DNA of 32,527 nucleotides. It comes from Clostridia bacterium (GTDB lineage Bacteria; Bacillota; Clostridia; Christensenellales; Aristaeellaceae). The position numbers were made by a program, and so were the translations under genes. The stretch spans positions 1 to 32,527 of the forward strand of contig JAUNNK010000015.1 in NCBI GenBank assembly GCA_030537335.1. The letters run 5' to 3'. Below are positions 2,591 to 32,250 of this stretch, one piece after another. How positions within the stretch are numbered: position 1 is the first letter of the stretch; every line of letters begins with the position of its first letter. The notes below the pieces were generated by a model that saw only the letters and a program-made list of their open reading frames with translations, was not told the DNA's origin and did not search any database.

Positions 2591-2604
2591 TGGGAGGAAT
2601 CGGA

Positions 2605-7611: not shown

Positions 7612-7623
7612 GGAGGAATGCCT

Positions 7624-9347: not shown

Positions 9348-9587
9348 CTACTCTTCCAGCCCTGCAAAGAAGGCATTGTAGTCCACGCCGAAAAGCTGTT
9401 TGAGCGCAACCAGCTCGGTAACGCGAATGTTGTAATCCCCACCTTCGATCTGTGAGTAGATGCTGCGCGATATGTCACATCCCGCCAGCTGGAGCTTGGC
9501 AACCACCTGCTCCTGCGTCATGTGCGCCTGGATGCGCAATTCCCGGATTTTCCGGCCAATATTTGCGTCTTGCCGGATTTTCTGCAC
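9348..9587 (-). CDS. Small XRE/Cro-type HTH repressor, ends in TAG
   Basis: 79 aa on the minus strand. The start is GTG at 9587-9585 with GGGAGG eight bases upstream. Residues 10-65 form an XRE helix-turn-helix: IGRKIRELR, MTQEQVVAKL, then SRSIYSQIEGG. It is the only minus-strand gene and lies head to head with the SLOG gene across two matching operators, so autoregulation and control of that gene are likely. It is also the only convincing gene in the window that ends in TAG (9350-9348). If that TAG is read as sense, the protein gains six residues (X-DLTTS) before TGA at 9332-9330. No internal TAG, so it is fully legible to a standard-code host. Confidence 0.85.
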   Translation of the reverse strand: MQKIRQDANIGRKIRELRIQAHMTQEQVVAKLQLAGCDISRSIYSQIEGGDYNIRVTELVALKQLFGVDYNAFFAGLEE

Positions 9588-11098: not shown

Positions 11099-11125
11099 CC
11101 ATAAACAAGGAAAGGATGCGTGAAC

Positions 11126-11944: not shown

Positions 11945-12279
11945 ACATGATCGATCTGACCCCGGTTCTGGAGGCATAGCTTGCGCTGCTGGCTGCGGTT
12001 ATCACTGTGAAGGTGATCCCCTGGCTGAAAAGCAAAACGACCAGGGAGCAGCAGGAATATCTGCTGGCAACCGTCCGCGTGCTGGTATACGCGGCGGAAC
12101 AGCTGTACGGCTCCGGCAAGGGCGAGGCCAAGCTGCAGTATGTGCAGGACGAACTGGAGGCGCGCGGCCTGTCGGTGGACATGCCCGCCATCGAAGCCGC
12201 TGTGCGCGAGATGAACCTGTTGGGCAGCTGGGAGGTCGCGATTGAGCAGGAGGTCGAAACCGATGACGGCGAGGACTAA
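11941..12279 (+). CDS. Holin, LLH type
   Basis: 112 aa with one TAG at 11977-11979 (codon 13); TAA stop. It begins in an ATGA overlap with the endolysin gene. One N-terminal hydrophobic helix (LALLAAVITVKVIPWL) is followed by KSKTTREQQEYLLATVRVLVYAAEQLYG and a charged helical tail, the layout of LLH-type phage holins. The TAG lies at the start of the membrane helix, in LEA-TAG-LALLAAVITV, where an aliphatic residue is expected. The protein would form membrane lesions that release the endolysin. With TAG as stop only 12 residues are made, so the whole lysis pair is off in standard code. Confidence 0.8.
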
Positions 12280-12676: not shown

Positions 12677-12996
12677 CACTCGATCGCGCCGTCGCAATGC
12701 TCGCCGCGCATCTGGGCGTGGTGGACGAGGAATGCATCAACAACATGGCCTATGTATTTTTCGACGACGTGCTCCGGGAGCTGGGCTACAGGCTCAACTA
12801 TGAAGCCATCGTCAACTATGCGGGCAACAGCTTCTGCGAAAAAAGCTGGGACATGATTCAGCGGAGCAATCCCTTCAATGTCGCCGACCCGAACGACCGC
12901 GCGCAGGCCATGGGTTCGCTTGCGAATTTCTTTGAACGAAGCAAAATCACAATCATGGGAGGAAACGGACATGAACGTCAAACAGGAACGGTATGA
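12263..12996 (+). CDS. Tail assembly chaperone, gpGT-like frameshift product
   Basis: About 244 aa, made if ribosomes slip by -1 on A-AAA-AAC at 12646-12652. The first 130 residues are shared with the short form; the -1 frame then reads PADGAKGVTLDRAVAML without interruption through LNYEAIVNYAGNSFCEKSWD to TGA 12994-12996. A GTG at 12673 could start the second frame alone, but it has no good ribosome site and the frames join cleanly upstream of it. In lambda-like phages the rare fusion recruits tail-tube subunits to the tape measure; the same role is inferred here. No TAG occurs in either frame. Confidence 0.72.
12646..12693 (+). promoter_or_regulatory. Programmed -1 ribosomal frameshift site
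   Basis: Slippery A-AAA-AAC at 12646-12652 is in phase with the zero frame (CTA AAA AAC). Five bases later a perfect 10-bp stem starts: GACGGCGCGA (12658-12667) with TCGCGCCGTC (12684-12693), 16-nt loop. A second possible slip site, A-AAG-GGG at 12667-12673, lies in the loop next to the zero-frame TGA. Heptamer, phase, spacer and stem all match the textbook arrangement. Confidence 0.8.
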
Positions 12997-13540
12997 GTAC
13001 ACCCACGCGCTGGAGATGGACGGACAGGTCTTTCACGTCCGGGAGATGCTGCCCTGTCAGGAAAAGGAGCAGCTGGCATAGGATCTGGTGAGCGCCACCA
13101 TGGTGTTCGATGAGGCGGCAGGCGTCGCTTATGAGAGCTACAACGCGGAGCAGATCCGCGCATTTTTGATTCTGGTTCACTATACCGACCTGGATCTTGC
13201 GGAGTACGATACGCCCGAAGGCCGCTACGCCGCGCAGGACGCCGTCGCCTCCCACGGCCTGTGGCAAAAGATTCTGGACATTGTGGAGCAGGATGTGGGC
13301 GACGTGGACGCCATCGCCGCACGGCTGAGGGACTCTGCAAAGTGCTGCTTTGAACGGCAGCATTCGCTGGAATACCGTCTGGCGAAGGTATTTGAATCCC
13401 TGCTGGGCACAGAGGATCTGATGGAGACGATCGCCAAGGCGGAGGATTTGAATTCGAAGCTGATCGACATGCTGGGCGCGGTGCGGAAGCAGCCTGCCCC
13501 CATGGCGGGCGGCGGACTTCAGTTTGCCAAAAAGGACTGA
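12971..13540 (+). CDS. Unknown tail-region protein
   Basis: 189 aa with one TAG at 13079-13081 (codon 37); TGA stop. ATG 12971 follows GGGAGGAAAC and overlaps the end of the chaperone frame by 26 nt. An N-terminal beta part (YTHALEMDGQVFHVREML) leads to a helical remainder. I do not recognise the family. Lying between the chaperones and the tape measure it may be a further tail-assembly factor. The TAG is in the helix KEQLA-TAG-DLVSATM. Confidence 0.6.
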
Positions 13541-13892: not shown

Positions 13893-16800
13893 ATGGCACA
13901 GAGCCAGAACAAGCTGGTCGGCACATAGTATCTGGATTTGTCCCGGCTGAGAAAAGACGTCAGCGAAACGAACGATCTGCTGAAATCCATCGGTGCGGGC
14001 GTCAATCTGAACATGAGCGACGTGGTAGAAAAGCAGGTTCGGGAGATGCTGACCCGCTTCAAAAGCGAGATTCAGAAGATGGCCAGCCAGAGCGTGAAGT
14101 CCGGACAGCAGGCCGCGGACGGTCTGAAGCCTGCGGTCTCCCAGATTCAGACGCTGCTCACCACCACCCAGCGGCTTGCGGCGGACGGCACGCTGACGGA
14201 GACCCGGAAGGGCTACGACGCGCTGGGCCGCAGCATCACCGAGGTTTACAAGAACGGTCAGTAGCTGAACAAGACCCTGAAGGCCGACTCCGCGTTGACT
14301 GCGGAGATCCAGAATGCCAACCGCCTCTACCGGGAGCAGAGCGACGCCCTGAAGCAGATCTATCGGCTGAAGACCCAGCGTCTGAAGGTGCAGGACGATA
14401 CGCCGTATGCGCAGAGTCTGGACGGTCAGATCGCCAATCTTCAGACGCTCATTGACGGCAACCGGAAGCTGATTGCGCAGATGGATCAGCAGGCGGTCGC
14501 CCGATCCCGGCTGGTGGAGCTGGCCCGCGAAGAAGCGCAGCTCTCCTCCCGGTATGGAAACGCGCAGCAGTCCAGAGCGCAGTCGGCGGGCAGGGCCGAG
14601 CTTCATCAGCTGCAGCAGGCATACAGGCAGCTGACCACAGCCTACCGCCAGTACAACATCGCCGTTAAAAACGGCAATGAGACCGGAAAGGAATACTGGA
14701 GCCAGAGCGCTACGCAGGCTATGGAGGAGATCCAACAGATCGAGCAAAAGCTGGTCTCTCTCAACATTGAGGAGAGTGTCCGCAAGCAGATCCTCGATCT
14801 CATTCAGCAGGCGAAGAACGCGGAAGCCGCGCACCAGGCACAGCTGGAGGGCACAGGAAATCAGCTGTCCCGGCTGGACCAGTCGCTGGACCGCATGGGC
14901 AGCCGCCTTCTCCAGATGGCGTCCACCATGCTCGTGCTGCGCGGCTAGACCTCCCTCTGGCGCAGTGCGACGGACTATGCGCAGCAGTACTACGACAAGC
15001 TGAACGAGATCCGCATCGTCACGGGGAAATCCGAAAGCGAGGTCAACCGCCTGGGCCAGAGCTATCGCACACTGGCGAAAACCATGAAAGTCTCCGCAAC
15101 GGAGATCGCTACCGCCGCCGTAGAATTCTGGCGGCAGGGCCTCGACGAAAGCGAGGTCAATGCGCGGCTTACGGCCTCCATTCAGTATGCGAAGATCTCC
15201 GCCATGGAGTTTGACGAAGCTGCCGAGCTGATCACCGCGGCCACGAACACCATGGAGATCAGCGCGCAGCGCGCGGCGGATGTATTCGCATATCTGGGCG
15301 ACGCCAGCGCCTCCGGTCCCGACGAGATCGGCATTGCCATGCAGAAGGCCTCCGCCTCCGCTGTGGAGTTCGGCCTGACCTTTGAGTGGCTGGGCGCGTA
15401 CATCGCCACCATCTCCGAACAGACCCGGCAGGCTCCTGAGGTCATCGGCACTGCCATCAACTCCATCATGGCGCGCCTGCACTCCATCAAGGCCAAGGGC
15501 TACACCGAGGAGGACGAGACCAAGATCAACGACGTCGCCCAAGCGCTGGGGACGATCGACGTGGCGCTGCTGGACAACGAGGGCAACTGGCGCGCAATGT
15601 CCGACATCTTCTCGGATATTGCGGCGCAGTGGGATACGCTGGACAGCAAGACCAAGAGCTACATCGCCACCACCATGGCCGGCACCCGCCAGCAGAACTA
15701 CTTCCTCGCCCTGATGAACGATATGTCCAAGGGCGTCGAGGGCGGCAGCCGCGCCTTTGAGCTCTACGCAGGCGCATTGAACGCGGCGGGGACTGCGGCA
15801 CAGAAGTACGCGGTCTGGCAGGACTCGGTGACCGCTGCGCAGAACCGGCTGACCGCCGCCGCGGAATCCTTCTATGCGCTGCTGGATGCGGAGTGGATGA
15901 AGGACTTTTACAACGGCATGGCGGGCCTGGTGGAGGTCATCACTGCCGGCACGGACGCGCTGGGCGGCTGGAACCTGATGATTCCCGTCGTCGCTGCAGG
16001 CGTCGCAGGGCTGGTCGCCGTGGTCATCAAGGCGGCCGCAGCCATCAGGACGATGACGGCTGCGCTTTCCGCCGGATCGGGCATTGCCGCTGCCATGAGC
16101 GGAGGTTCCATCGGAGCGATCATCGCCGCCGTCGGCATGCTTACCGCGGTGGTCACCATGATCGCAGGCGTATCCGCCAGAGCCGACGAGATCCGGAAGG
16201 TGGACTATGCAGGCACCATCCAATCGGTCTCCGGCTACCGGGACGCCGCAGAGGCGCTGGTCAGCGAGCTGGAGACGCTCGCGGAACGAACAGAGCTGTC
16301 CGCTGACGAGCAGTCCCGCGCGGATGAGATCATGCGCACACTGTCCGGAACCTCCCTTTCCATGAAAGCCGCGCTGGAAAACGGCGGAGAAGGCTTTGAC
16401 ACCCTGGGCGAAAAGGCCGTCGCTGCGCGCGGCGAGCTGGAAAGAACGGAGCAGGTGCTCCGAAGCCTGAACGCTGCGGACGCGCTGCAGAATCTGAGAG
16501 ACGACGGCGGTTCCTATTCGAACGCCATTCGCGAGGCGCAGCAGAACCTGACCTCCGTGAGCCAGTACAGGGAAATCGCGGACGCCTATGCGCAGTTCAT
16601 GGCCGAACATCCCGAAGGACTGTATGCGCAGAGCTACACCGGTCCCCACGGCATGTATGCCAGCAAGGACGAGAATTTCTACGTCTACGCAAAGAATCAG
16701 GCGGAACAGCCCATGCCCGTCTGGTACTCAAGGGAGGACAAGGCGAGGATCCAGGCGGATCGCGACTTCTGGGCAGGCGTCGTATCGGAGATGGATGCGC

Positions 16801-19800
16801 TGGGGCTGGACTATGCCTCCTCGGTGGAGACGATCTCCAACAAGATGCTGGAGTTCGACATCGCGGCGGGCACCTACGCCGAGGCCAATCGTCAGGCTTT
16901 GGAGGATGCCTGGCAGCCGGTGTTCGATGATCTCTACACCGTCATGACCGACGGCACCCAGTTTGCACAGCTGCCCTCCTTCATGCAGGACGCCGCCATC
17001 CGGTACTACGATGAATTCATTGCCGGAATTGACCGGCAGACGGAGCTGGCCGAGGGCGACCTGATGGCCATGGCCGCAGACCTGACCGGAAAGGTGGACG
17101 CCATGGCGGAATACGTCGACGCCCACGCGGACTTTGATGGAATCATCAAGCGCTTCGACGAATTGCTGGGCGGCGAGCAGACGCAGGAGACCGTGGACGA
17201 GCTCAACAGCCTGCTGCCCGTTGTCAACGAATTCATCACCGCTTATAACGCGCTGACCGAAACGACGGACGACGACATTCCGCTGTTCCCGGAGTTTACT
17301 TTGGACAGCCTGCGTCAGGCGCAGCAGGAGATGGAGACCACGGAGAAGTCCATCGCTTCGCTGGACACCGATGAGCTCTACCGCAAGCTCGCCATCGCAC
17401 GCGAGGAAGCCAATCGCTTCAGCTCGGTGCTCGCCAGGCTTGGCGAAGGCGAGGGCCAGTTTGACAACCTCCATGATGCGGTGCTGTCCGTTGCCGAGGA
17501 GATTGCCGCAGGGCTGAACATCACCGACGCAAAGGTCATCGGAGAAATCGGCGACGCACTGCTGGAGGGACTCTACGAAACCTATCCCGGCATCGCCGAC
17601 TATGTGGACACTGCTACCGGCATGCTGACGGACGGCTGGCAGGAGGGTGTGGCGAAGGCCGCCAATCCCTGGGCGGAGTTCTTCGAAAAGGCGCGCCTGG
17701 AGGATGCACTGAAGGCTGCGAAGAAGGATATGGCCTCTCTGGACGCCTCCGAGCTGTGGACGCAGCTGCTCGATCCGAACGGCATGGGGCTCTATGCCTA
17801 CGCCGAGGACTGGGCGCGCAGGCTCCTGCCGGAGGCCACTGAGGAGGAAGTCATCGCACTGGCGGGTCAGTTTGTGGACGCGTTTTTCGAGATGTTCGCC
17901 GACATCGACACGACCATCATGGACGCGAACGGCAGAATTGAAGCGGGCATGGACGGCGTTGTAGCGACCATGCGTGAAAAGGTGGCCGAGGCACAGCGGG
18001 AAGCGACCCAGCTGGAGACGGCCTACAATTCCCTGCACTCCGGACAGATTGCGCGCGACGAGGCAATTGCCGGACTGACCTCCATGGCCGGACTGGCGCG
18101 CAGCGGCGACAGCGCCGGCGTCCTTGGCGTCTTTGAAGGGATGTCCGCCGAAAGCATTCAGGCGATCATGGAGGCCATGCCCGAGCTGATCGACAGGCTT
18201 GTGGACGGAACCTGGGCGGCCGAGGACTTTGACGAAGCAATCCGTCGCATCGACGAGGTGGCGTCCAAAACCGGAAGCGACGCCTGGGCAGATTATCTCT
18301 CCGGAACCGCAGAAGGCATGAAATCCGACGCAGACGCAATGAAGGAGGCCATGCGCTCGGTCATTGCCGAGGTTGCTGCCGCAGATGACAAGACCGCAGC
18401 CTTTTACAGCGCGCTCACCCGCCTGGAAAGCGAGGGCATTGACATCGGCGCGCTGCTGGAGCAGTTCGGCACGCTGGCAATGCTGCTGCTCAACGGCGCG
18501 GCCAGCGCGGACGAACTGTATACATCCCTTGACCGGCTGGGCGATCTGCGCAACCTTCAGATCGATCTGGAACAGGCGGATTCGCTGTCCGCGGCCGCAA
18601 GGGCGATTGATCCCTCGAACGCTGCCTATGATCCCCTTTCGGCGCTGGATGCCTACGCGCTGCTGGAAGCGGAATATGTGGAGCTGACTGCGCTGCAGCG
18701 CGGTTCGGCGGAATACATTGCCCGCGCCCGACAGCTGACGCAGGAACAGACTGCAGCGGTCTACGAACAGGCGGCGGCCTACGGCGTCGTTTCTGATATT
18801 CAGGCAAATTCCGCGCAGTATGCGGCGAATGCCCAGCGGGAGCGGCGATTTGACCGCGCAGCAGCAAACGGCTATGCGGGCGCCGTGTCCTATCTTGAGG
18901 AAGCTGTGCGGCAGGCGGAGGAAAACGGCGAAGACGTCGTACAGGCATGGAACAATGCACTCGGCGATCTGGATGAAGCTGGCGTTCTCGAAGGCATGAT
19001 TGCCATGTTCGGAGACATCTCCAATCTGGCGGTTGCCTGCGGCGGCGACGTGGCGAAGATCGTGGAAGGGATTTACGCCATGCAGGAGGCCGCCAATTCC
19101 ATGACGCTCAGCGACATGGCGCAGTCCCTGCGCGAGGAGCGCGCAGCCAATGCAGCTGGCACGGACGGCTATCAGGACCAGACCGGCGCGCTGCTGGACG
19201 CCTTCGGCTCCGGCGGCACGGAGGGTGTGGAAAATGCCATGGCCGTATGGAACGGCTTCGACGAATCGCTGCGCCAGTCCATTGCCGAAACCTATCCCTC
19301 CCTCGTCATCGCACTGGACGATGCAAATCAGGCAGCGGAGGCGCTGAAAGAAGGTACGTCCGAGCTGGAAGGCGCGCAGGGTGACCTGTCCGACGCGTCC
19401 CGAAGCGCGGGAAAGCAGATTGACGCGCTGGGCAAGGAACTGAACAGCGCACAGAAGTCCTCCACGGCAAGGTATTTCAAGAATACCGCCGCTGCCATCG
19501 AGGACCTGAAGCATGGCGCGATCAGTGTCAGCGGTGCATTCGGCACCTACAACAAGGAGGCCGAAAAGGCCGTCAAAGCCAACGAGCAGTATCAGGCTGC
19601 GGCTAAGAAGATGGCGCAGGGCATGCAGGTTGCGTCCAACGAAATCGACGTGCTGGCAGAGTATCTGGGCAACACCGATCCCGAGGTGCTTCTGGCGAAC
19701 TGGGATCAGGTTGGGCCGATGATGGCGGCGGCGCTGGCGGAAGGCGAAGCGGCCTTTGACCGGCTGAACGAAGCTGCATTTATCTGCATCACCGGTACGT

Positions 19801-21956
19801 CGGTCGCGGATTTCTCCGCATTGACCAACGGCCTTGTGAGCGTCAAGAATCTGGCAGCGGAAACCGTACAGGCGCTGATTGCCACCGGCCAGTGGACCAC
19901 TGAGACCATTACGCTGCCCCAGGAGGGAGCGCAGTGGGATCCGATCTCCGGCACATGGACGCGCACGATGCTCAATACCAACCAGACGGTGCTGAAATAC
20001 ACCGGCAGCAATCCTTTGAGATCCGGCGGCGGCAGCTCCGGTTCCGGAAGCAGCGGCGGCGGCGGTGGCGGCAAGGGCGGCGGTGGCGGCAGCTCAAGCA
20101 CTGAGGTCAGCAAATCCATCCAGAAGATGCTGGATCAAATGGACGAGGATCAGGGATTCGAGGATCACTACCGGAAGATGGCGCAGCTCGCGCAGGGCTA
20201 CCATGAAGCGCGGGGTGAGATCCAGGGCGTGATTCTCTACCTTGAGAAGGAGCGCACGCTGGTTGCGGACAACACGGAGACGCTGCGCGGCTATGTGCGC
20301 ACGCTGGAAACGCAGATCGAGCAGAAGCAGGCCGAGCTCGCCAAATACAAGGAGGGCTCGAAGAAGTACAAGCAGGCAGCTGTCGATCTGGAGGCGCTGC
20401 AGAGCGCGCATCAGCAGTACTCTGAGCAGCTGCTGGAGAACATGACCGATCTGGAGGAGCTGAAGGACCAGATTGAAGAATGGCACAATACCGTGCGCGA
20501 GATGGAGATCGACCTGCGGGAGCTGATCCACGACGCGATTCTGGATCGGGAGGCGCTGAACCAGCGGATGCTGGAGGGGCGCATCGATCTGGAAAACGAG
20601 CTGATGGACGTGCTGACGCGGCGATACGAAAAGGAGCGCGACGAGCTCATTGAGGTGGCGGAGCTGAAGCGCGAAGCGCTCAATGAGGAACTGTCTGCGC
20701 TGGACGAGCAGCTGGAGGCCCGGAAGAAGCTGAATGAGCAGCAGGATCGGGCAAAGCTGCTGGCGGAAAAGGAGGCGCAGCTCGCCAGAATCTCCGCCGA
20801 CCCCACCCGAAAGAAGGAGGAACTGGCGCTTCGCGAGGAGATTGCAGAGCTGCGGGAGGAGATGGCCTGGGAGCTGGCTGAGGAAGAGGTCAACGCCCAG
20901 AAGAAATCCATCGAAGCCCAGATTGACTCCATCGATGAATACATCGAATATGTGGAGAATTACTACAAAGAGCTGCTCTCCAATCCGAGAAAGCTGATCG
21001 AAGAGCTGCAGGAGCTGATGACCCGCTCGGATGAGGAAATCCTCGCATGGCTGGAGGCCAATCATGAGGAATACGAGACTGCAACGGACGCAACCCGGGA
21101 GAGCATGCGCCTGGGCTGGCAGGAGATGCTGGACGACATGCGCGGATACACGCAGACCTATTGGGACGAAGTAGAAGAAATCATCGCCCAGGGCGACGAC
21201 GCCATCATCGAGTTTCTGAAACAGAACTCTGCGGACTACAAGGAGGCCGGACGGCTGCAGGCGGAGGCTTATGTGGACGAATGGAAGAAGAAGCTGCAGG
21301 AGCTGAAGGACGCGATGAAATCTGTGTCCGATTCGCTCAGCAGCGTAAAGTATACATCCACTTCATCCAAGACAAGCGGCAGCTCCTCCAAAAGCGGCGG
21401 CAGTTCGGGAAGCGTGGCAAAGGTCACACTCTACCAGGCAACCTATCCCGCCATCGGCTCTGCCAAAGGTGGAACGCTGAAGGGTTATGCGACGGCGGAG
21501 GAGGCGCAGAAGGCGGCGCAGTCCAAGATCAATTCGATCTGTCGAGAGCAAAGCGGCAGCAGCTCCAGCATGATCGGCGAATGGGCGCGCAGCCTGTACA
21601 GCCAGATCAAGGTGACGGCGTACGCCCGGGGCGGCCTCGCCAGCACAACCGGCCTGGCTTGGCTGGACGGTACAAAGCAAAAGCCTGAGCGGATTCTGTC
21701 TCCCTATCAGACGGAACTGTTTGAAGATCTGCTCCATACGCTGCACGCCATTCGCACTTATCAGGCGCCGGCTGCTGCGGTACAGCCCCGGCTTCCGGAG
21801 TCTCAGCAGAGCGCGCTCCACATCGACAGCATCACCGTGCAGGTTCAAAGGCTGGAACGCGAGCAGGACTACGAGGAGATGGCCGAGCGCGTCGGGGAAC
21901 AGATCATGGAAAGGGTGTCCAGGGGCATGGCTGTGGGCGGCGTCCGGCTGGGATGA
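13893..21956 (+). CDS. Tape measure protein, very long
   Basis: 2687 aa with TAGs at 13926-13928, 14262-14264 and 14946-14948 (codons 12, 124 and 352), none in the remaining 2335 codons; TGA stop. ATG 13893 follows GGTGGTGAG. Residues 1-350 are coiled-coil rich. From about 352 a TP901-type tape-measure core is recognisable (KTMKVSATEIATAAVEFWRQG, ATNTMEISAQRAADVFAYL). A hydrophobic stretch lies near 696-765. A Gly/Ser linker (about 2043-2070) is followed by a long charged coiled coil to about 2480, a second Ser/Gly linker, and a C-terminus with GGLASTTGLAWLDG. It sets tail length and occupies the tube lumen until DNA ejection. Confidence 0.92.
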
Positions 21957-21986
21957 CCGCCCAGCCATATGCCGGAAAGGAGGACG

Positions 21987-23042
21987 ATGGAGGGATTTTC
22001 ATTTGCGGGCGTTCATTCGGGCGCCTTTGGCTGTTGGCACATCCCGGATGCAAAGGAGCGCGGCGGCGGTATGGAGGATTACGAACTTAGCGAGCTGGTT
22101 CCGGAAAACCGCGACGGCGGATACTATCTCGGCGTGCGCGCGAAGCCACGGGATTTTGAACTGAAGTGCTATTTTGAAGAAATCACAGAGGCCCAGTAGG
22201 AAGACATCTACCGCTGGCTGCGGCGCGGCATGCAGGGCGAGCTGGTTTTCGACGCGAGGCCCTATGTCTGCTATGACGCTGTGACCAGCAAACGGATTGC
22301 CATCAGCCTGTACGATTCAGAGGCGGCGGACGGTAAAATCCGCTATAGCGGTACCTTTACCGCATACTTCCGGTGCTACAATCCCTTTGGAAGGCTGAAA
22401 AGAATCTGGCATGACGGCGACGTGAGCGAAAGCGAGCTGATTCACACCGGCGTGCTCCCGGCAGGCATGAAGCCTGACATCCCGACTGCGGAAAGCCGGA
22501 ACCTTCTGTTGTACAATCCCGGCACGGAGCGGGCGCACACCGTGATCCGGATCGCCGGAGACGTCGGCAGCGGCCTTCTGATCCGCAATTTCACCACCGG
22601 CCAGCGCTGCAGCGTGGTTGGCCTGACCGCTGACAGTCTGCTGCCCGGAGCAGTGCTGGAGCTGGACAGCGCCATGGGCCAGACGCGGATTGCCCTGGGC
22701 GAAGATACGTCGCTGGCCTTTGCCCTGCACGACGAGGGGTACATCGAGCTGGCTCCCTGTACGCCCTTCGTTCGCTCCGTGAGGATTCGTCATGCAGCCG
22801 GGAGCAATGTGATTGCATCGGATGGATGCTTCGCGGCGCACATGGAGGGACAGTTTCTGTTTCTTGACGGCTGGAAAAAGCTCCGGCAGATCACCAGCGC
22901 CGACATGGCAATTCTCTCAGAGCCCGCCGACCGCGACGGTGAAACGGATACGCCCATCGTGACCATGAACGAAATCGAACTGAGCGGCGATGGGCTTGCA
23001 CTCACTCGGCTGGAAATTGACTGTATTCCCCGAATTCGCTGA
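21987..23042 (+). CDS. Distal tail protein (Dit)
   Basis: 351 aa with one TAG at 22197-22199 (codon 71); TGA stop. ATG 21987 is chosen because AAAGGAGG lies four bases upstream; an ATG at 21969 is also in frame. N-terminal Dit features: FSFAGVHSGAFGC, FELKCYFEEIT, IYRWLRRGMQGELVFDARPY and the YSGTFTAYFRCYNPFGR strands. The C-terminal half is a beta sandwich (LLLYNPGTERAHTVIRIAG) common in Dit proteins. It would form the hub between tube and tail tip. The TAG falls in the helix TEAQ-TAG-EDIYRWL, where an aliphatic residue or Met is usual. Confidence 0.85.
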
Positions 23043-23059
23043 CGAAGGAGGTGTTTCCA

Positions 23060-25543
23060 TTGGCGACCACGAGGTAGTCCATCCACGATATGAACCGGCA
23101 GAAGCTGTGCGAGTAGTATGACTCGGAGCTTCGGCCGGAGGGGCAGGCCTACGACCTGACCATCACCACGGAGATCAGCGGCTGGAAAGAACTGACGTTT
23201 TCACTCCCTCAGACCGTCAATGGGAAGCGAAACTTCCGCTGGGACTATATCCGCAGCGGCTATCTGGTGCGTCTGGAGCGGGATGGCGCGTATGACTGGT
23301 TCCTGCTCAATGCACCGAAGCGATCCCACAAGGGTCTGGCCGTCAGTGCGACCATCACCTGTCAGCACATCTGCGCGCAGCTCTCCAAGAAGAACCTGTA
23401 CCTCAGCTTCGATGACGGGAACGGCGTCGGTACCGCACAATTTCTTTTGGAACAGATTCTCCGGAACACCGGCTGGCGGCTGGACTTCTGCGAGACCTTT
23501 TACGAGCAGGACGGCGAAACCGAAAAGGTGCGCTCAATCAAGTCGGAGGGAAAGCGCGGAGCGTATCTTCTGATCTCCGATGTGTGCAAGCTGTTCGGCG
23601 CACGGCCGGTGTTTGACGGCGATTCCCGAAGCGTGCGCATCTGTTCGCTCAACCGCTATGAGGATCTGCTGGAACTCAGCTTCGGAAAGAACCTGACGGC
23701 AATCGACCGCAAGGAGGACGCCGAAAACATCGTCACCCGGCTGTACGTCGAGGGCGAATACAGCGATTCCGGTTATGTGGGCATTGACGAGGTCAATCTT
23801 ACAGGGCTTCCGTTTCTGCTGGATTTCTCCTATTTCAGGGAGCTGGGCGTATTCACGGACGCGCATCAAGCCGCGCTGGACGCATACCTGAGGGACGTCC
23901 GCACGGCCAAGGCCGACAGCTCGGAAACCGCCGCGCAGCTGATTGAAATGGACGGACAGCTCAACAGCCTGTGGGGCCAGACGGACTATGTGCTGTATGT
24001 TCTGGAGGACGGAGCCGCCAAACGCATAATTCCCGGCGGCGGTGCAACGGATGCGCAGACGGAAATCGGTGACGAGGACGTCGTAACCGTGCTGCTCTCC
24101 GACGGCACGCACCGGGAGCAGACCGGGCCCACCTTTGAAGCGGACGCGCAGTATGCGGTCAAATGGATTCAGCGTGCGTCCGGCGTCATTGGCGGCAGGG
24201 AGGTCGCCATTGAAGCGAAGCGCTCCAGCATTCAGAGCCTGTACCGTCAATATGAAAAGGAGACGGATGAAACCAAACGGCAAAGTCTGCTGGATCAGAT
24301 TGCAGCGTTGGAGGATGGGATTGCGCAGCTCTATGCGGGGACGGATACCGATGAGGGCCTATATGCGCTGATGCGAAGGGCTGTTCTGCTGGCGATCGAT
24401 CGCGACGATCTGCGACAGGTCTACGAGGCCTCCCTCTCCGGACAGGAGGCGATCGAAAACCGTTTTGCGGAAGCCATGGGCGACATGCTGATCGACGGCT
24501 ACTGGAGCAATACCAGCTACGCGCCCGGCCAGGAGGAGCTGCTGTACCGCGAGGCGTGCGAGGTCATGGAGCATCTGGCGAAGCCCACCGTCTCCTACAC
24601 GGCGAGCATTCAGAACCTCTCGGGCGTCAGCGGCTATGAACAGGAGCGCTTCACACTGGACGCCGCGCTGCGGATCCGGGACGAGGCGCTGTCGCTCAAC
24701 GACATGGCCTATGTCACCAAGCTGGTTGAGCACCCTGAAGAACCGGAGAAGGACGCGGTCACCATTTCCAACGATCTGACGCAGATCGGCGGCGTGTCGC
24801 TGGACAGCGTCATCAGCCGGATCACGGGCATCGCGGAACTCATCAATCAAAAGAAGGCGCTCTACGATCGCTCCCGGGTAATTACTGACCAGGGCTCCAT
24901 TCCCGCGCAGAGGCTGGAGGGCATGATCGACGTGTAGAAGACGCGGCTCACCTCCAGCGTCTCCAACTGGTACACCGATGAGAACGGCAATCTGATTCTG
25001 GAGGCGGTGAACGGGACAAGCGCCATGCAGCTGTGCGGCGAGGGCTTTATGATCGCCAGCAGCAGAAATGACGACGGCAGCTGGGACTGGCGTACTTTCG
25101 GCACCGGCGAGGGCTTTACAGCCGACCTGATCGTGACCGGCTTTCTTTCCGCCGATCGCATTCAGGCCCACTCCATCACGGCCAACCATCTCTCGGCAGA
25201 CGTGGGACAATCGCTGGATCTCTCCAGCAACACCTCGATCCGGATGACCGTGGAGAGCGCGGCGCTGAAGGCCGTGGGCTACCGGGTGGAGATCTGTTCC
25301 GAACACGGCGACGTGCTTTCCGACAGGGTGCCCTCCACGACGCTGCGTGCCCGGGTCTGGCAGGGCGGCACGGAGGTTACGGACGGCATCGACGCCTCGC
25401 GCTTTGTCTGGACGCGCCAGAGCAACGACGAAACCGCAGACCGGGTGTGGAATGCGGCGCATACAGGTGTGAAGGAAATCACGCTCACCACAGCGGACGT
25501 ACTCTACAGCGCAAATTATTCCTGCGATCTCCTCGAAGCATAA
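23060..25543 (+). CDS. Tail-associated baseplate protein (Tal-like)
   Basis: 827 aa with TAGs at 23075-23077, 23114-23116 and 24935-24937 (codons 6, 19 and 626); TAA stop. The start is TTG 23060, after AAGGAGGTG. The N-terminal 250 residues match the hub domain of siphoviral tail-tip proteins (IHDMNRQKLCE, AYDLTITTEISGWKEL, LVRLERDGAYDWFLL). A helical middle (about 280-600) carries DGYWSNTSYAPGQEELLYREA. After the last TAG come SNWYTDENGNLILE and a C-terminal Ig-like part. It forms the tail tip next to Dit. No peptidase motif that I can identify. The third TAG lies in EGMIDV-TAG-KTRLTSS, a position I expect to be hydrophobic. Confidence 0.8.
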
Positions 25544-25597: not shown

Positions 25598-25629
25598 ATG
25601 ACTATGAGGAGTGAGCGGAGGTGTTTTGC

Positions 25630-25923
25630 ATGGAAATGATTCGGCCATCGGCGGATCTTCGCAACCATTACAGCGAGATTTCCAAGACCTGCCGGGAGAG
25701 TCGTCAGCCGGTGTACATTACGGTCAACGGCCGCGGCGATACGGTACTGATGGGACTTACAGAATATGAACAGATGCGTGCAGAGCTTGAACTGCTGCGC
25801 ACGCTTTCTGAGGCGGAGGAGGATGTGCGCGCCGGTCGCGTTGCACCCATCGAGGACACGTTTGGCGGCATCCGCGAGGCGCTGCTTGCCCGGAAACAGG
25901 ACGGAGGATCTGACGGAAAATGA
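25630..25923 (+). CDS. Phd/YefM-type antitoxin
   Basis: 97 aa, no TAG, TGA stop. ATG 25630 is preferred over GTG 25621 because GGAGGT (25617-25622) is then correctly spaced. The N-terminal fold is typical of Phd/YefM: MIRPSADLRNHYSEI, then QPVYITVNGRGDTVLMGLTEYEQM. The C-terminal half is charged and would wrap and neutralise the toxin. Such antitoxins also repress their own promoter together with the toxin. The toxin gene overlaps by 4 nt. Confidence 0.88.
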   Translation: MEMIRPSADLRNHYSEISKTCRESRQPVYITVNGRGDTVLMGLTEYEQMRAELELLRTLSEAEEDVRAGRVAPIEDTFGGIREALLARKQDGGSDGK

Positions 25924-26231
25924 AATACAGAATCCTCCGAACCGACAAGGCGAACGACCAGCTGTATTCCATACTCCAATATATCGCCGAGGATTCAGGC
26001 AGCGTGGACATTGCTCTGAATTACCTGGACGTTCTGGAAACTGAAATCAAAAAGCTGGAGACCGCACCCCACATGGGCAGCTATCCCCGATACAGCATTC
26101 TGCGAAAGCAGGGCTATCGGGTGCTGATCGTCCAGCGGCACCTTGTGTTCTACAAGGCGGATGATGAAAGGCGGGAAGTAATCATTTACGCTGTCGTAGA
26201 CTCCCGACAGCACTATGTCAACCTGATCTAA
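25920..26231 (+). CDS. RelE/ParE-superfamily toxin
   Basis: 103 aa, no TAG, TAA stop. It begins in an ATGA overlap with the antitoxin gene. The order DKANDQLYSILQYI, then ALNYLDVLETEIKKLETAPHMG, then YRVLIVQRHLVFYK and VIIYAVVDSRQHY is that of RelE/ParE toxins. Whether it cleaves mRNA (RelE-like) or poisons gyrase (ParE-like) cannot be told from the sequence. It and its antitoxin form a self-contained unit with promoter and terminator placed between tail-tip and fibre genes. Confidence 0.88.
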   Translation: MKYRILRTDKANDQLYSILQYIAEDSGSVDIALNYLDVLETEIKKLETAPHMGSYPRYSILRKQGYRVLIVQRHLVFYKADDERREVIIYAVVDSRQHYVNLI

Positions 26232-26290: not shown

Positions 26291-28114
26291 ATGGCAATTA
26301 TCGCAACGGGCAGCAAGACGATCATCGATTTGACGGACGGAAAATCCTAGTCCGTCCATCTGGGGAGCAATCAGCCGCGAACGCAGATCCACGACGTCAA
26401 CGCCGGGACCTTTGTGCCGGACTGGACGAGCACAGCGGGCAAGCTGGTCATCACTCCCGTCATCTATGCCAACCAGGCGGCGATTCCCCTGACGAGCGCC
26501 GCGCTGTCGATCACATGGAAGCGCCGGGAGGGATCAGCCAATGAAGCGGCGCTGACTTCGGGCGAAACGGTGAGCGGCAACATTCTGACCGTATCGGCCA
26601 ATCAGCTTTCCGCAATTTCCAGCGGTCTGATCACCTACATCGCATATGTGACCTGGACCGATCCCGATAACGGCGTTCCGGTCAACGCCACTGCAGACAT
26701 CAGCTTTGCACTGGTATCCACCGGCGAAAATGCGAAAACCGCATGGATCGGCGGAGAGCAGGTGTTCAAGTATGCTGCGGGCAGTACGACCTCTGTGCCG
26801 GCGCAGATCGAACTCAACGCCAATCTGCAGAATGTTACCATGAGCAGGTGGCAGTACAGAGCAGCAGATGGCACGTGGACGGACTATCCCACCACCAGCG
26901 ACAATTCGAGCATCACCGGAACCACGCTGATCGTCAAGCCGACACACGGAATCTGGGTTGGCGACGCCGCGACCCTCCGCATCGTCACGAGCGACGCCAA
27001 TATTGGCGATACGACCAGCATCTACAAGGTTTCCGATGGCGCGGATGGCAGTACAGGCGCAGCGGGACAGAGTGCGCCGGTTGCCTTTCTCTCCAATGAG
27101 AACATCACCTTTGCGGGCAATGTCTCCGGACAGGTCGCTGCGATTACCAGGACCTGCAATGTCGTGGCCTATCGGGGAACGACCAAGGTCACGCCCACGG
27201 TGGGCTCCGTGACGGGCGCGCCGACCGGCATGACGGTCACCGTGGGCAGCGCGACGGCAAACGAGATTCCGATCTCGATCGCCATTGCCGCCAACGCGAC
27301 GCTCGGCGGCAGCGGTCCTCAGCAGGGAACGCTGTCCGTTCCCGTCACCGCGCCAGTCAGCACCACACTGACAATCGCCTGGAGCAAGGTCAACACGGGC
27401 GCGACCGGGGCAGCCGGGCAGAATGCGGTGGTGTTTTCTCTGTATGCCCCGTCGGGCACGGTGTTTGTCAACGGCGAGGGCACGCTGCCGATTCAGGTTG
27501 CAGCTTACAATGGTTCCACGCCCATTTCCAGCGGCGCGACCTATGCCTGGGCGAAGTATGCCAGCGGCAGCTGGACGACCATCTCCGGACAGACCGGAAG
27601 CAGCCTGACGGTTGCAGGCGCTGACGTCGCCGGCACGGCCAGCTACCGCTGCACCATGACCTACGGCGGCAAAACCTATCAGGACATTATCACGCTGATT
27701 GACAAGACGGACAACTACCAGCTGGATGTCGATTCCACGGCGGGAGACGTCTTCAAAAACAGCGTCGGCGAGAGCGTGCTCATCGCCCGCCTCTGGCAGA
27801 ACGGCGCCGAGGTGGATGCATTGAAGAGCACGACCTATGCCACTGCCGCGCCTGCGAGCCCTGCGACGGGTGATTTCTACTACCGGATCACCAAGTCCAC
27901 GCCGCAGATGGCGCTGATGCGCTACTCCGGCTCCGCCTGGACTGACGTTACGAGCAACGCCACATACGGTCATGCCCGAAGCTATACCTGGTACCGCCGG
28001 GACAAGGACGGCAATCCGCTGGATGGCGGCAAGGCCTTTGCCACGGGAAAGACCATCTATATCGATGGCGACGACGTGGACAACAAGACGGTCTTTGTCT
28101 GCGAGGTGGAATGA
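26291..28114 (+). CDS. Tail-tip/fibre protein with Ig-like domains
   Basis: 607 aa with one TAG at 26348-26350 (codon 20); TGA stop. ATG 26291 follows GAGGAGGCG. The N-terminus (IIDLTDGKS-TAG-SVHLGSNQPRTQ) is a common start of Bacillota tail-tip proteins. Next come several beta sandwich domains, including an Ig-like one around residues 400-470 (ATYAWAKYASGSW; GTASYRCTMTYGGKTY). Two short Gly-rich collagen-like pieces (DGADGSTGAAGQ, NTGATGAAGQ) act as hinges. It probably contributes to host-surface binding. The C-terminal DDVDNKTVFVCEVE closes another Ig-like domain. Confidence 0.7.
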
Positions 28115-29172
28115 TGATCGCACAGGCACAGAAGACGATCGTGGATCTCAACGATCCCATCCAGCAGGGGACGGCTCCGGCCGCCCCCGTGACAGGGATG
28201 CTCTGGTAGGATACTTCCCAGTCTCCATCGCAGCTCAGACGCTATACGGGCAGCGAATGGGAGCTGGTCAACGAGGTGCAGATCGGCGGCGTAAACCTGA
28301 TCGCAGGCAGCGCCAGCCATACCCTCGTGGCGACAGATGCAGACACCTATTGGGTGGCGGCGGATGAGCTCATGCGCGGAGGCAGCTACACCTTTTCTGT
28401 GGACGAGGTTCGTCTGACGGCAGGTACGGCGACAGGTGCGAGCTGGGCGCTGGTCAATCAGAACGATGGCGCGGTGAATCAGAGCGGCACGCTTGCGTTT
28501 TCTGAGAACCGGCAGACGGCGCAGTTTACGGTGCCTGCAGCAGACGGCAACTGGTCGCTGTATCTGTACGCGGGAATCCGCGGCGCCACAAGCGGCAACA
28601 CGGTCGTCTACGTGCGATCCATGCTGGAGGAGGGCGACATTGCTACCAGCTGGCGCGCTGCTCCGGAGGATACGGCCAATCAGATTGAACAGCTGATGGG
28701 AAGCATTTCCGGACTGGACAGCACGCTGGAGAGCCGCGTCCGGGCATTGATCTACTCTATGGAACTCTCGGGTCAGTTCGCCAGTGCAGAAGATTTTCTC
28801 AACGCGCTGAAGGACATCGAGCTGATCCGAAGTGAGCTGGCGCAGACGGACAGCAATCTGACGCTGACCTTCAGCCGCCTCGCCGCCGCCGAAAACGGAA
28901 TTGCCCAAATGTTCTCCTATTTTGAATTTGGCGACGACAACGGCACGCCCTATCTGGACATGGGCAGTTCCGCATCCAGCGTGAAGATGCGATTGACCAA
29001 TACGCGCCTCACATTCGTGCAGGCGGGCACGGAGCTGGCCTACTTCAGCGACAACAAGCTGTATGTCACCCGCCTGGAGGCCAGAGAGCAAATCTCCATT
29101 GGAACGGTGGAGAACGGCTATCTCGACATGGTGACCACGCCCACCGGCGTGGGCTTCAAATGGAGAACCTGA
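28111..29172 (+). CDS. Tail-tip protein, possible receptor-binding component
   Basis: 353 aa with one TAG at 28207-28209 (codon 33); TGA stop. The start overlaps the previous stop (ATGATGA). The N-terminus GMLW-TAG-DTSQSPSQLRRYTGSEWELV is the widespread LW-x-DTS module of tail proteins, where x is normally Leu, Val or Ile. A jelly-roll-like carbohydrate-binding region (about 70-180) follows, then a helical region (ENRVRALIYS type) and a C-terminal beta part (MRLTNTRLTFVQAGTELAYF) typical of siphoviral tail-tip proteins. Receptor binding is inferred. Confidence 0.65.
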
Positions 29173-29188
29173 CAGAGAGGTGAACGAA

Positions 29189-31216
29189 ATGCCCACATTT
29201 TCGACAACAGCCAGTGAGCTGAAGTATGCTTCCGGTTCCTCCTGGTCGTCCGGCAAGGCGCGGCAGGGCGTGTATTCAAGCACGCGATACGAGGGCGCAA
29301 TCAACTTTTCCGGTTAGTCCGGTCTGAGCTTCTCCAATATCGCCATCTCCCAGATTCAGATGAATGTGACCTTTGGCCCGGCAGGCGGCGATTCACGCAA
29401 GAACCTTACCTTCTACAAGGCGACGAAGAACAGCATCTCCGGCAGCATTGCCTCCATGCGCGGCGACAGCATCGGCGCGATCTCCGTGGAATACGCCTAC
29501 GATCGATCCACGACGCTGACCTTCAACAGCAGCACCAATGCCGGCATCTTTTCTACGCTGCAGGCTTACTTTGCAGCGGGCAATCAGGTGCTCATCATCT
29601 ACGTTCCCACCACGCGTGGAACCTATTCCGGCGGATATTGCTACGATTACCTGTCCGTGACCGCCGCTTCGCTGACGATTACCTACGAATACCTGCAAAG
29701 CGATGGTTCGCTGGCCTCTGCCAGCGTGGCGGCAGGAAGCGCTGCGAAGCTGAACATCACTGCCTACAACACCGCGTACAGCCACAAGGTCACATGGAGT
29801 TTCGGGAACCATACCGCGACGCAGACCATCGCGTCCGGGACGGCGTCCGCCTCCTACACAATCCCGCTTTCGTGGCTGGATGTGATTCCCTCCGCAACGT
29901 CCGGCGCTGCATCCGTTTCCCTGGAGACATAGGACGCCGGTGGAAACTCCCTGGGAACCTACAGCTATGGATTTACCATCACTGCACCCGCGAGCGTCGT
30001 ACCCACGATTTCAAGCGTAACGGCAGCTCCGGTCAACGACAACAGCGTGCTCGCCGGCTGGGGTATCTACGCCTACGGCAAGTCAAAGGCGACGCTGAAA
30101 ATCAATGGTGCGGCGGGTGTCTATGGTTCCACCATCAAATCGTATTCGATCACTACCGACCCTGGCATCGGCAGCGCATCGTCCTCCAGTCTGACGACGT
30201 CAACGATCTACAAGACGGGAACCATTACGGTGACTGCCAAGGTCACGGACTCCCGCGGACGCAGCGCAACGAAAAGCACAACCTTCTCCGTCTATTCCTA
30301 CGGCAGCCCCTATTTCTCGTCCATCGAAGCCTATCGCTGTACCAGCAGCGGTGCGCGTGACGAGGTCAATGGAACCTATGCACGGCTGCTGGTCAGCTTT
30401 GCCTGCTCCGCACTCAGCGGCAGCAACAAGGTAACCGGTCAGGTCGTGCTGGCGCAGGTGGGCGGCAGCTATTCGACATCTGCCACGCTGACCAGCGGCA
30501 CTGCATTGATCCTCGGCGGAGGGAATCTTGCCGTAGATGCGACCTATAAGGCTACGCTGACGCTGACGGATACCGTGGGAACCGTGTCCACCTATGTGGT
30601 GGAGATCAGCTCCGCGGCATACATCATGCATGTCAAGAAGGGCGGCAAGGCGATTGGCTTCGGCATGGCGGCCGGTGAAGACAATACCGCCTCCTTTGGC
30701 TGGGCGGTAAAGCTCAGCAATCCACTGGAGGTTTCGCAGGGCGGTACGGGCGCGTCATCCGCTTCATCAGCGTGTTCAAATATCGGCGCAGTCAAAAAAG
30801 CCGGTGACACGATGACCGGGAATCTTTCCATCCAGACCAGCCTGTATCCGTCGCTGTATCTGCTGCCCACCTACAACGGAACCACAAATAGGACAGTGTT
30901 CGAGGGATCTTATGCAGGCGCTTCATCCTTTTCCGCCTGGCAGGACAGCACTGGCAACAACCGCCGCATGCTGGAGGTGCGCAACGCAGCCTACCAGTCC
31001 AGCCGGGATTATGCTGTTGTTCTTCGTGATGTTGTCAATGGCAGTTATTACACCTATCGTGTTTTCCATGCAGGAATGGCGACGCCCGTGCCCATTGCCA
31101 ACGGCGGCACGGGTGCGTCGGCTGCCAAGGCAGCCCTGAACAATCTGGGCGTTTTCTATGCGGATGAGCTGCCCGAGAGTGGCACGGATGGGCAGATCTG
31201 CCTTGTCCCGGTCTGA
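29189..31216 (+). CDS. Tail fibre protein, DUF859-like
   Basis: 675 aa with TAGs at 29315-29317 and 29930-29932 (codons 43 and 248); TGA stop. ATG 29189 follows GAGAGGTGAAC. The N-terminal third is a Ser/Thr/Gly-rich beta domain (FSNIAISQIQMNVTFG). The middle has repeated Ig-like strands. The C-terminal third carries two fibre repeats, QGGTGASSASSACSNIGA near residue 518 and NGGTGASAAKAALNNLGV near 639, with KKAGDTMTGNL between, all typical of trimeric phage fibres. The composition is strongly biased to Ser, Thr, Ala and Gly. It should mediate adsorption. Confidence 0.75.
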
Positions 31217-31230
31217 TTGGCGGTGATGGA

Positions 31231-31890
31231 ATGGCAACATTTACGGCAACCGCCAACAGCAGCTCCACCATCGGCTACGCGCAATATGGTTCGACCAGCT
31301 GGAATACGGGTACATCCAATGGGGCCTGCCAGGGTGCCTATCAGGGAACCACGGCCAGCAAATCCCGTGTGGGCGTCATGGTCTTCTCCGGCGCAGGCAG
31401 TACGCTGAAGGGAAAGATCATCACGCAGATTGCACTGAAGATCACCTGTTCGTCAGCCGGATCGAGCAGCACATCCAAGATACTGTCCTTTCGCAGAGCC
31501 AACTACCAGTCGCTGAAAACTGGCATCACCGGTTCGTCACAGGTCGGGGATTCGCTGGGGACACTGACCGGCAAATTCTACGGCAATACCGTAACCCATA
31601 CACTGAACGCGACGACCAACGCTGCTCTGTTCAATGCCATGAAGGTGTATCTTGCGGAAGGCAACTCCGCGTTGGTCTAGTACAACGCCGAGACTTCCTC
31701 GTCCTCCGGCTATTCCAGCAACTATGCCCGCGTGACCACCTGCGTGATCACCGTGACGTATATGGATGCGACAGTATGGTATTGCGCAGGCGGAACGTGG
31801 AAGCAATGTGCGGTCTGGTACTGCAATGCGGGTACATGGATTCAGTGCGTTCCCTATTACAACAGCGGCGGGACATGGATTCGAGTTTGA
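31231..31890 (+). CDS. Small fibre/adhesin with C-terminal aromatic-Cys repeats
   Basis: 219 aa with one TAG at 31678-31680 (codon 150); TGA stop. ATG 31231 follows GGCGGTGATGGA. The N-terminal 180 residues form a beta domain similar in composition to the upstream fibre. After the TAG come YNAETSSSSGYSSNYAR and three degenerate repeats built on W/P-Y-C/Y-x-x-G-T-W (residues 182-219). Such repeats are common at the ends of Bacillota phage tail proteins and may bind glycans. Without sense TAG the whole repeat tail is lost. The TAG lies in NSALV-TAG-YNAE, probably a strand. Confidence 0.65.
31774..31887 (+). repeat. Three aromatic-Cys peptide repeats
   Basis: Encoded repeats VWYCAGGTWKQCA, VWYCNAGTWIQC and VPYYNSGGTWIRV. 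The third has lost both Cys. They are too diverged at DNA level to be recent duplications. Confidence 0.6.
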
Positions 31891-31908
31891 AAGAAGGAAG
31901 GGATGCCC

Positions 31909-32250
31909 ATGAATTGGGGGGTCATAGTTGAAACCGTTCAGAAGTACTGGGTCCAGCAGCTCTGCGTGCTGACTGTGGCAATCATTACCGGATAGTACCA
32001 TAGACAGATCAAAAGGCTCAAAAAGGAGTCTCAGGATCAGAAAGCAATCCGCATGGCGATGGTCGCGCTTCTTCGGGATCGCTTCTACGAAGGCTACAAG
32101 ACTTATGTCCAGCAGGGGTACTATCCGATCCCTGATCGCGAGGTCATGCAGGACATCTACGATCAGTATCATGCGCTGGGCGGGAACGGCGTTATTACAC
32201 ATCTAATGGAAAAGCTTGATGAATAGCCCACATAGTCGCATCACCAGTAA
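31909..32250 (+). CDS. Small membrane-anchored coiled-coil phage protein (holin-like)
   Basis: 113 aa with TAGs at 31993-31995, 32224-32226 and 32233-32235 (codons 29, 106 and 109); TAA stop. ATG 31909 is preferred over ATG 31903 because the AAGGAAGGG site needs the longer spacing. A hydrophobic N-terminal helix (LCVLTVAIITG-TAG-Y) is followed by HRQIKRLKKE, then ALLRDRFYEGYKTY and IYDQYHALGGNGV. Related proteins end the genome's tail block and are usually annotated holin-like or minor structural. The terminal KLDE-TAG-PT corresponds to a recurring KL-x-x-LPT ending as I remember the family. Confidence 0.65.

Follow-up and report, generated by a model that had tools for sequence, protein, structure and literature searches.

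Which amino acid does the codon TAG specify in a phage whose bacterial host appears to stop there? The window analysed here, a stretch of 32,527 nucleotides, is contig C230 of a bacterial metagenome-assembled genome (MAG; 2.81 Mb in 240 contigs) and holds a partial phage contig. When TAG is read as sense, 29 plus-strand genes follow one another in the phage order of packaging, head, lysis, tape measure and tail, and 33 in-frame TAGs are spread over 21 of the 29 (10,476 codons); the other eight have none. An earlier note on this DNA had proposed, in an entry on the gene at 28111-29172 (tail/fibre-like), that TAG means leucine and not glutamine. Our analysis supports that proposal: TAG is almost certainly leucine in this phage and its relatives, judging from the leucine in the aligned columns of recoded relatives, from leucine being the commonest residue in other phages, and from phage CUA tRNAs with leucine features. 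For the explanation as a whole, in which UAG is leucine through a phage CUA tRNA and the TAGs serve as an amber lock, we estimate a probability of about 0.85. The lock itself, on replication and late genes, we favour by a narrow margin.

In-frame TAGs and the host code

The tail/fibre-like gene carries a single in-frame TAG, at 28207 (codon 33, context GMLW-TAG-DTSQ), and the further sites named in the earlier note (96, 7648, 11339, 11977, 14262, 22197, 31678 and 32224) were all recovered as in-frame TAGs. The 29 plus-strand genes end with TGA (21) or TAA (8) and never with TAG, and none of their frames contains an internal TAA or TGA. We do not attribute the open TAGs to chance, because reading through TAG alone leaves frames as long as 2,687 codons uninterrupted and because the terminase and portal align with those of relatives over (nearly) their whole length, crossing the TAGs. 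As the contig is binned in a bacterial MAG, one could instead suppose decayed prophage genes that have acquired amber mutations, with no recoding. The intact TAA and TGA register, the alignment of proteins across the TAGs, the several TAGs common to many lineages and the tRNA carried by relatives reduce this alternative to a negligible chance. In the codon usage table of the window, the leucine codon TTA is absent, CTA occurs 4 times, and TAG is counted 32 times against 34 for TTG.

The host MAG contains prfA, which encodes release factor 1 (RF1), and TAG terminates 17 of 112 long open reading frames (ORFs) in a naive longest-ORF reading of nine stretches from eight of its contigs. The host therefore appears to use the standard code and to stop at UAG with RF1. 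Compared with that fraction, the absence of TAG stops from the 29 plus-strand genes is significant (p=0.023). Counting a minus-strand regulator outside the 29 (9348-9587), which seems to end in TAG, makes it 1/30, no longer significantly below the host's 17/112 (p=0.12).

Residues opposite the TAGs

A terminase scan of viral contigs returned 15 loci at 71-89% identity, to which scans with the portal and the distal tail protein (Dit) added one further contig and another part of a known one; the gene at 28111-29172, used as query in the viral scan, gave no match. Window genes were aligned to 18 lineages, six of which (N, O, P, Q, R and K), near-identical to rows kept, were dropped before counting one cell per lineage and column. 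Recoded relatives cover 24 of the 33 TAG columns. Six of these contain TAG alone, 18 have at least one lineage with a sense codon, and 16 of the 18 are leucine throughout. The 69 sense cells comprise L 63, I 4, M 1 and Q 1. Relative to leucine, log-likelihoods in natural-log units, calculated with a substitution table from the same alignments, were -35 for Met, -44 for Ile, -57 for Val, -57.5 for Gln, -74 for Tyr and -82 for Ser. The reverse comparison, in which a TAG of a relative faces a sense codon of the window, gave L 45, I 4, Q 3, M 2, R 2, E 2 and one each of W, H and F over 61 columns. One of the two columns that are not all leucine is codon 11 of the gene starting at 7618 (L 2, I 2). 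TAG sites turn over between relatives.

To move beyond the recoded clade, we aligned the TAG columns to phages without the code, using 12 loci of 11 GenBank phage records picked from among the matches listed. One record (MT835488) has a stop inside the alignment and may not be standard-code; the other alignments are free of stops. Leucine accounts for 13 of the 28 residues opposite the window TAGs, followed by Y 5, V 3, M 2, A 2 and one each of F, K and I; glutamine accounts for none. The TAG at 28207 faces leucine (CTG) in a phage at 56% identity over 55 residues; 32224 faces L, L, L and M, 11339 L, L and M, 11150 L and F, and 31993 L, V, V, A and A. A second set came from the DnaE-like polymerase of four recoded relatives, compared with six phages out of 40 rows listed (1,272 records matched). 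Two of its 13 TAG columns have no residue in the six phages, and the remaining columns hold 49 residues (L 24, I 5, V 4, E 4, others fewer, Q 0). Leucine is thus the commonest residue in both sets.

Glutamine, the meaning of TAG in NCBI code 15 and in known recoded gut phages, was the obvious alternative, and the phage TAG reassignments in the surveyed literature, as far as the available parts of those papers go, are to glutamine. The columns speak otherwise: glutamine is 57 log units worse than leucine, occupies 1 of 69 cells in relatives, and is missing from both other-phage sets (0/28 and 0/49). Columns dominated by glutamine, which the earlier note had named as evidence to the contrary, were not found in these alignments, nor was a suppressor tRNA of glutamine identity among the CUA tRNAs described below, which are class II with A73. 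We therefore consider glutamine wholly improbable.

Two of the window genes, at 26291-28114 and 31231-31890, share 74% and 72% identity with phage genes (PV036419 and PV036454, respectively, both among the 11 records) filed as Candidatus (Ca.) Heliusvirales with a Christensenellales host, and both alignments are free of stops. These similarities suggest a probable exchange of genes with Ca. Heliusvirales phages across a boundary between genetic codes.

The probable decoding tRNA

Two of the six longer viral contigs, G003 (72 kb) and G005 (80 kb), encode a CUA tRNA. A pattern scan added JAFSKN010000028.1 (Clostridia bacterium, goat reticulum), which is the same contig as G271:C52 and belongs to the family of the window's host. 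In genome G007, which shares its genus with the host, the polymerase gene is recoded, with four TAGs, and is followed directly by a CUA tRNA. This brings the distinct genomes with such a tRNA to four. In G005, G271 and G007 the tRNA lies within about 80 bases of the end of the polymerase gene; in G003 it is far from the polymerase, with a transposase and a reverse transcriptase gene between (L059, 13395-19062). Pattern scans for leucine-like CUA tRNAs gave hits in 4 viral and 6 genome contigs and in 1 of 400 related genomes; the G007 tRNA, with its different loop, escaped the pattern. Of the 10 viral and genome loci, 6 yielded a CUA tRNA with ARAGORN. Three of these six, in MAGs titled Hyphomicrobiales, Planctomycetota and Bryobacterales (L078, L080 and L081), are leucine-like CUA tRNAs with no clear recoding around them. 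At position 33 of its anticodon loop, where U is usual, the G007 tRNA (L113, 5195-5280) appears to have C.

The CUA tRNAs are 85-87 nucleotides long, class II, with an encoded CCA and A73. Their D-arm stretch TGGCGGAACTGGCA is identical across them and matches the host Leu(UAA) tRNA at 12 of 14 bases. Read by eye, they carry A15 and U48, against G15 and C48 in the host Ser(UGA) tRNA. We take A15, U48 and A73 to be features of leucine tRNAs, and G15 and C48 to be features of serine tRNAs.

Besides leucine, the bacterial class II tRNAs are those for serine and tyrosine, and the class II shape alone would fit either; tyrosine would also agree with the homologues at 29930. The TAG at that site is one base from TAC and TAT. 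Pyrrolysine, in turn, is the label that ARAGORN assigns to the CUA tRNAs, on the basis of the anticodon. Serine and tyrosine are disfavoured by 82 and 74 log units relative to leucine, and the 73rd base is G in the three host Ser tRNAs seen but A in the suppressors. For pyrrolysine, pylS passed the cut-off in none of four genomes: the best matches in G000 and G007 fell short of it, and G271 and G109 had no match. Of 14 control genomes, 1 passed it. Jointly, we hold these three amino acids to be very improbable, if a shade less so than glutamine.

The four relatives thus carry a class II CUA tRNA gene with leucine features that presumably decodes UAG, and the phage in the window would rely on such a tRNA too. 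ARAGORN found no tRNA there, and Rfam gave one match at E up to 1, below its curated score. No ribozyme match (theta or HDV-like) was found in Rfam scans near two of the four tRNAs (L019 and L020), and no promoter-like site in L070 12300-13000, around one tRNA.

Several observations pull away from leucine or from its delivery by a phage tRNA. Portal codon 12 (2623) is mixed in relatives (L 1, I 2, M 1, Q 1). The TAG at 29930 faces Tyr in 5 of 5 homologues, which accounts for all five Tyr in the GenBank set; 14946 faces V and K, at about 20% identity; and the TAGs at 23075, 29315 and 32233 face no homologous residue. Whole-length identity to host tRNAs, compared for three of the four suppressors, fails to set leucine apart: it is 62-69% for Leu UAA/CAA, 57-64% for Leu GAG, 66-67% for one Ser, 63-67% for Trp and 51-60% for Gln. 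No suppressor is present in the window or among the tRNAs that 25 Rfam matches yielded for its MAG, and no CUA tRNA was found in the other four of the six longer viral contigs, all possibly fragments.

Position of TAGs within genes

To describe where TAGs fall, we drew blocks of replication and late genes by hand in the window and in G003, G005 and G006 and pooled them (115 genes, 175 TAGs); the pool includes related genomes and shared sites. TAG makes up 42 of 248 leucine codons in codons 1-25 (17%), 22 of 241 in 26-50, 35 of 477 in 51-100, 25 of 677 in 101-200, 26 of 689 in 201-400 and 25 of 936 beyond 400 (3%). TTG is flat across the same bins. The first 100 codons hold 99 of the 175 TAGs, where 55.6 would be expected from leucine positions, and 22 of 33 in the window alone (10.8 expected). 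With the first 25 codons excluded, the excess before codon 101 persists (57/718 against 76/2302, p=5e-7; G006 alone, p=0.11). A naive gene caller applied to the four genomes retained the excess in the first 100 codons in 4/4 (p of 0.004 or less).

The code-15 phage phAss-1 (OQ749652), with 303 TAGs in 56 genes, served as a control and showed no significant gradient. The mean relative place of its TAGs was 0.467 against 0.485 (p=0.076), and its first 100 codons held 77 against 71.5 (p=0.13).

A TAG-poor block and the base before TAG

Two relatives contain long stretches that are nearly devoid of TAG. In the G003 block (31.5-54 kb), none of 30 gene calls contains a TAG within its frame and none of 31 code-11 calls stops at one, although a first calling with longer starts placed one TAG in this block. 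In G005, between 15 and 64.7 kb, 3 of 40 gene calls hold one TAG each, two of the three calls being weak, and 2 of 39 code-11 calls stop at TAG. Of ten block proteins scanned, three could be placed in PHROGs families that bear a name (anti-restriction protein, DNA methyltransferase and reverse transcriptase). These contents suggest that the block comprises early genes. The G003 integrase, beside a tRNA-Lys gene, is free of TAG with an inside start and has two TAGs otherwise. By comparison, the DNA polymerase, primase-helicase, exonuclease and anaerobic ribonucleotide reductase genes of relatives all bear TAGs. TAGs thus occur in structural and lysis genes and nearly never in the presumed early genes, while replication genes are recoded too.

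The base before TAG is also biased. It is A at 83 of 175 sites, compared with 11% before sense leucine codons and 15% before tyrosine codons. With the preceding residue held fixed, A occurs at 83 of 171 sites (28.7 expected) and, in the window, at 12 of 32 (4.2 expected, p=4e-4). At aligned sites with the same preceding residue, the relative has A in 90 of 201 pairs if it carries TAG and in 47 of 304 if it carries sense leucine, these pairs not being independent. TTG shows a smaller rise of preceding A (24%). In phAss-1 the rise is weaker (27% against 16%) and comes with more T and less C at that position. An effect of A on readthrough in these phages would be in keeping with eukaryotes, where two adenines before a stop accompany readthrough according to the available part of one report (PMC7764779); stop context effects are said to differ in bacteria in what was available of another (PMC8216290).

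A possible amber lock

By comparison, UAG stands for leucine in the packaging, virion, tail and lysis genes, and in the replication genes of relatives. In the mechanism that we propose, it would be read by a CUA tRNA presumably charged by the host leucyl-tRNA synthetase, in a host that stops at UAG with RF1. While the suppressor tRNA is absent, host RF1 would cut replication and late proteins short, and because the TAGs crowd near gene starts, the products would be short peptides; with the tRNA present, these proteins would be completed. The presumed early block and the integrase of one relative, being free or nearly free of TAG, could be translated without it. Because the tRNA gene directly follows the DNA polymerase gene in three relatives, a transcript of the replication genes would also supply the tRNA that unlocks replication and late genes. 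With the tRNA there, the A that is synonymously preferred before TAG may make readthrough easier.

The lock may reach a regulator as well. An XRE-type gene on the minus strand (9348-9587), outside the 29, has TAG as its apparent stop, with a TGA six codons further; its relative in G006, 67% identical, uses TAA to stop at that residue. In the presence of the suppressor, the C-terminus of the window's regulator would gain six residues. In a broader model, a temperate clade of Clostridia phages would use a leucine amber code of its own as a positional lock, with TAGs placed near the start of most replication and late genes and often preceded by A, a leucine tRNA transcribed together with the polymerase gene as the key, and at least one regulator that retains a TAG stop and whose C-terminus unlocking would also alter; the code switch would then be the lysis-lysogeny switch. 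We rate this model somewhat less likely than not.

The strongest competitor accepts leucine and the phage tRNA but dispenses with regulation: TAGs would drift in from leucine codons, and late RF1 termination, being costly, would select for TAGs near gene starts. Genes with a TAG number 85 of 115, against 83.5 expected after weighting by position; TAG sites turn over between relatives; and TAG makes up just 3.7-8.6% of leucine codons per genome. It is less easily reconciled with the presumed early block, which is nearly TAG-free in two genomes although drift should act there if the tRNA is always present, or with the lack of a clear gradient in one code-15 phage. We rate it a credible account that falls somewhat short of even odds. 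A separate idea, that each gene has its own lock (21 of 29 genes with TAG, 15.7 expected, p=0.005), was rejected, as the effect vanishes once position is weighted.

Some of our own counts tell against the amber lock. The 85 of 115 genes with TAG are predicted by the position gradient alone (p=0.41), and 8 of the 29 window genes have no TAG. Gene calls cover 70% of G003 and 65% of G005 (65-78% across G003, G005 and G006), and genes were therefore missed. With the naive caller, the shift in mean TAG place reaches significance in G005 and G006 alone, not in the window (p=0.051) or G003 (p=0.095). In phAss-1, too, the first 25 codons are slightly high (28/69). Some first-codon TAGs may, moreover, precede the true start: polymerase codons 4 and 7 have no standard residue aligned, and the G003 integrase and one block gene lose their TAGs when the start is set inside.

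Features of the window

Genes of the window with in-frame TAGs are listed in Table 1, together with the minus-strand regulator and a toxin-antitoxin pair.

Table 1. Window features, with in-frame TAG positions and the residues found opposite them.
Feature	Coordinates	Strand	In-frame TAG	Matches and aligned residues
Gene before terminase	21..941	+	96	Weak endonuclease VII-like PHROGs matches; no Pfam match; 96 is Leu in 7/7 lineages
Terminase large subunit	938..2590	+	2249	phrog_2; column TAG 5, Leu 6 of 11 lineages
Portal	2590..4149	+	2623, 2908, 3397	phrog_2739
Gene of unknown function after portal	4162..5250	+	4342, 4387	4342 is TAG in 8/9 lineages; 4387 is Leu in 8/9
Small gene before capsid gene	5268..5711	+	5454	PHROGs scan, relatives' columns
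Major capsid protein (probable)	5727..6728	+	5844	phrog_2522, E 7e-7
Gene without PHROGs match	7222..7611	+	7393	Leu in 6/6 lineages
Gene without PHROGs match	7618..8319	+	7648 (codon 11)	Column TAG 2, Leu 2, Ile 2 of 6
Gene without PHROGs match	8316..8873	+	8724	Leu 4/4
XRE-type helix-turn-helix regulator	9348..9587	-		Pfam HTH_19, HTH_3, HTH_31
Virion structural protein	10229..11062	+	10361, 10421	phrog_2729
Endolysin	11120..11944	+	11150, 11339	PHROGs; Pfam PG_binding_1
Holin	11941..12279	+	11977	phrog_6918; TAG in 2/2 lineages
Gene upstream of tape measure	12971..13540	+	13079	TAG in 2/2 lineages; frame begun one codon early (12968) in the relatives' column count
Tape measure protein (2,687 codons)	13893..21956	+	13926, 14262, 14946	phrog_4211; TAGs all in first 352 codons
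Distal tail protein (Dit)	21969..23042	+	22197	phrog_33; Leu in the single covering lineage
Tail protein	23051..25543	+	23075, 23114, 24935	phrog_6211; 23075 not covered
Toxin-antitoxin pair inside tail block (Phd/YefM-like, ParE-like)	25621..26231	+	None	Pfam PF02604, PF05016
Tail protein	26291..28114	+	26348	phrog_3267; Leu in 4/4 phages
Tail/fibre-like gene	28111..29172	+	28207 (codon 33)	Weak PHROGs tail matches; Leu (CTG) in phage NatCom_6392, Leu also in the recoded relative on L046
Tail protein	29180..31216	+	29315, 29930	phrog_372; 29315 opposite gaps
Gene ending tail block	31231..31890	+	31678	Leu in 72%-identical homologue, Ile in another
Small gene	31903..32250	+	31993, 32224, 32233	phrog_4105

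Significance and comparison with known systems

Phage annotation pipelines, as described in the available parts of their reports, offer glutamine (code 15) as the only meaning of a recoded TAG, and each TAG in the proteins of this clade would therefore be translated wrongly. If phages have a second amino acid for TAG, what the codon means would be seen to depend on the tRNA that the phage took up. The gradient and the nearly TAG-free block, for their part, would give the question of why phages recode stops measurable predictions on timing and position.

Borges et al. (2022) reportedly found recoded codons in structural and lysis genes and proposed that they prevent premature late expression. 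The recoded structural and lysis genes described here resemble that proposal. They differ in that TAG is read as leucine, in that the replication genes of relatives are TAG-rich too, and in that the TAGs are graded towards gene starts.

In the available portions of the surveyed literature, phage stop reassignments take TAG to glutamine and TGA to tryptophan or glycine; no phage with TAG as leucine appeared among the literature matches listed, judged by titles and the starts of abstracts. The code-15 gut phages, which in the parts available include crAss-like phages (PMC9523058) and phAss-1 (PMC10607447), share with the present clade the reassignment of TAG in structural genes and a reported phage CUA suppressor tRNA. 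Unlike in those phages, the amino acid here is leucine and the tRNA has leucine features. TAG makes up about 5% of the codons for its residue here, compared with about 29% in the TAG-bearing genes of phAss-1, where the start-of-gene gradient is not clear and the preference for A before TAG is weaker. One phAss-1 suppressor tRNA (L118, 12445-12532, annotated Sup-CTA) is 88 nucleotides long; its variable arm is long, and its D arm does not resemble the one in the leucine tRNAs here. Theta-ribozyme-linked suppressor tRNAs, as far as the available part of their description goes (PMC10879173), have a phage CUA tRNA in common with this system; two of the four tRNAs here have no ribozyme match nearby.

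The assignment of UAG to leucine (NCBI table 16) is itself established elsewhere: what was available of one report places it in chlorophyte and chytrid mitochondria, a rhizarian and phyllopharyngean ciliates, and describes the CUA tRNAs of such ciliates as most like tRNA-Leu (PMC11687900). Those cases concern eukaryotic nuclei and organelles, whereas here the same assignment would belong to a virus whose bacterial host continues to stop at UAG.

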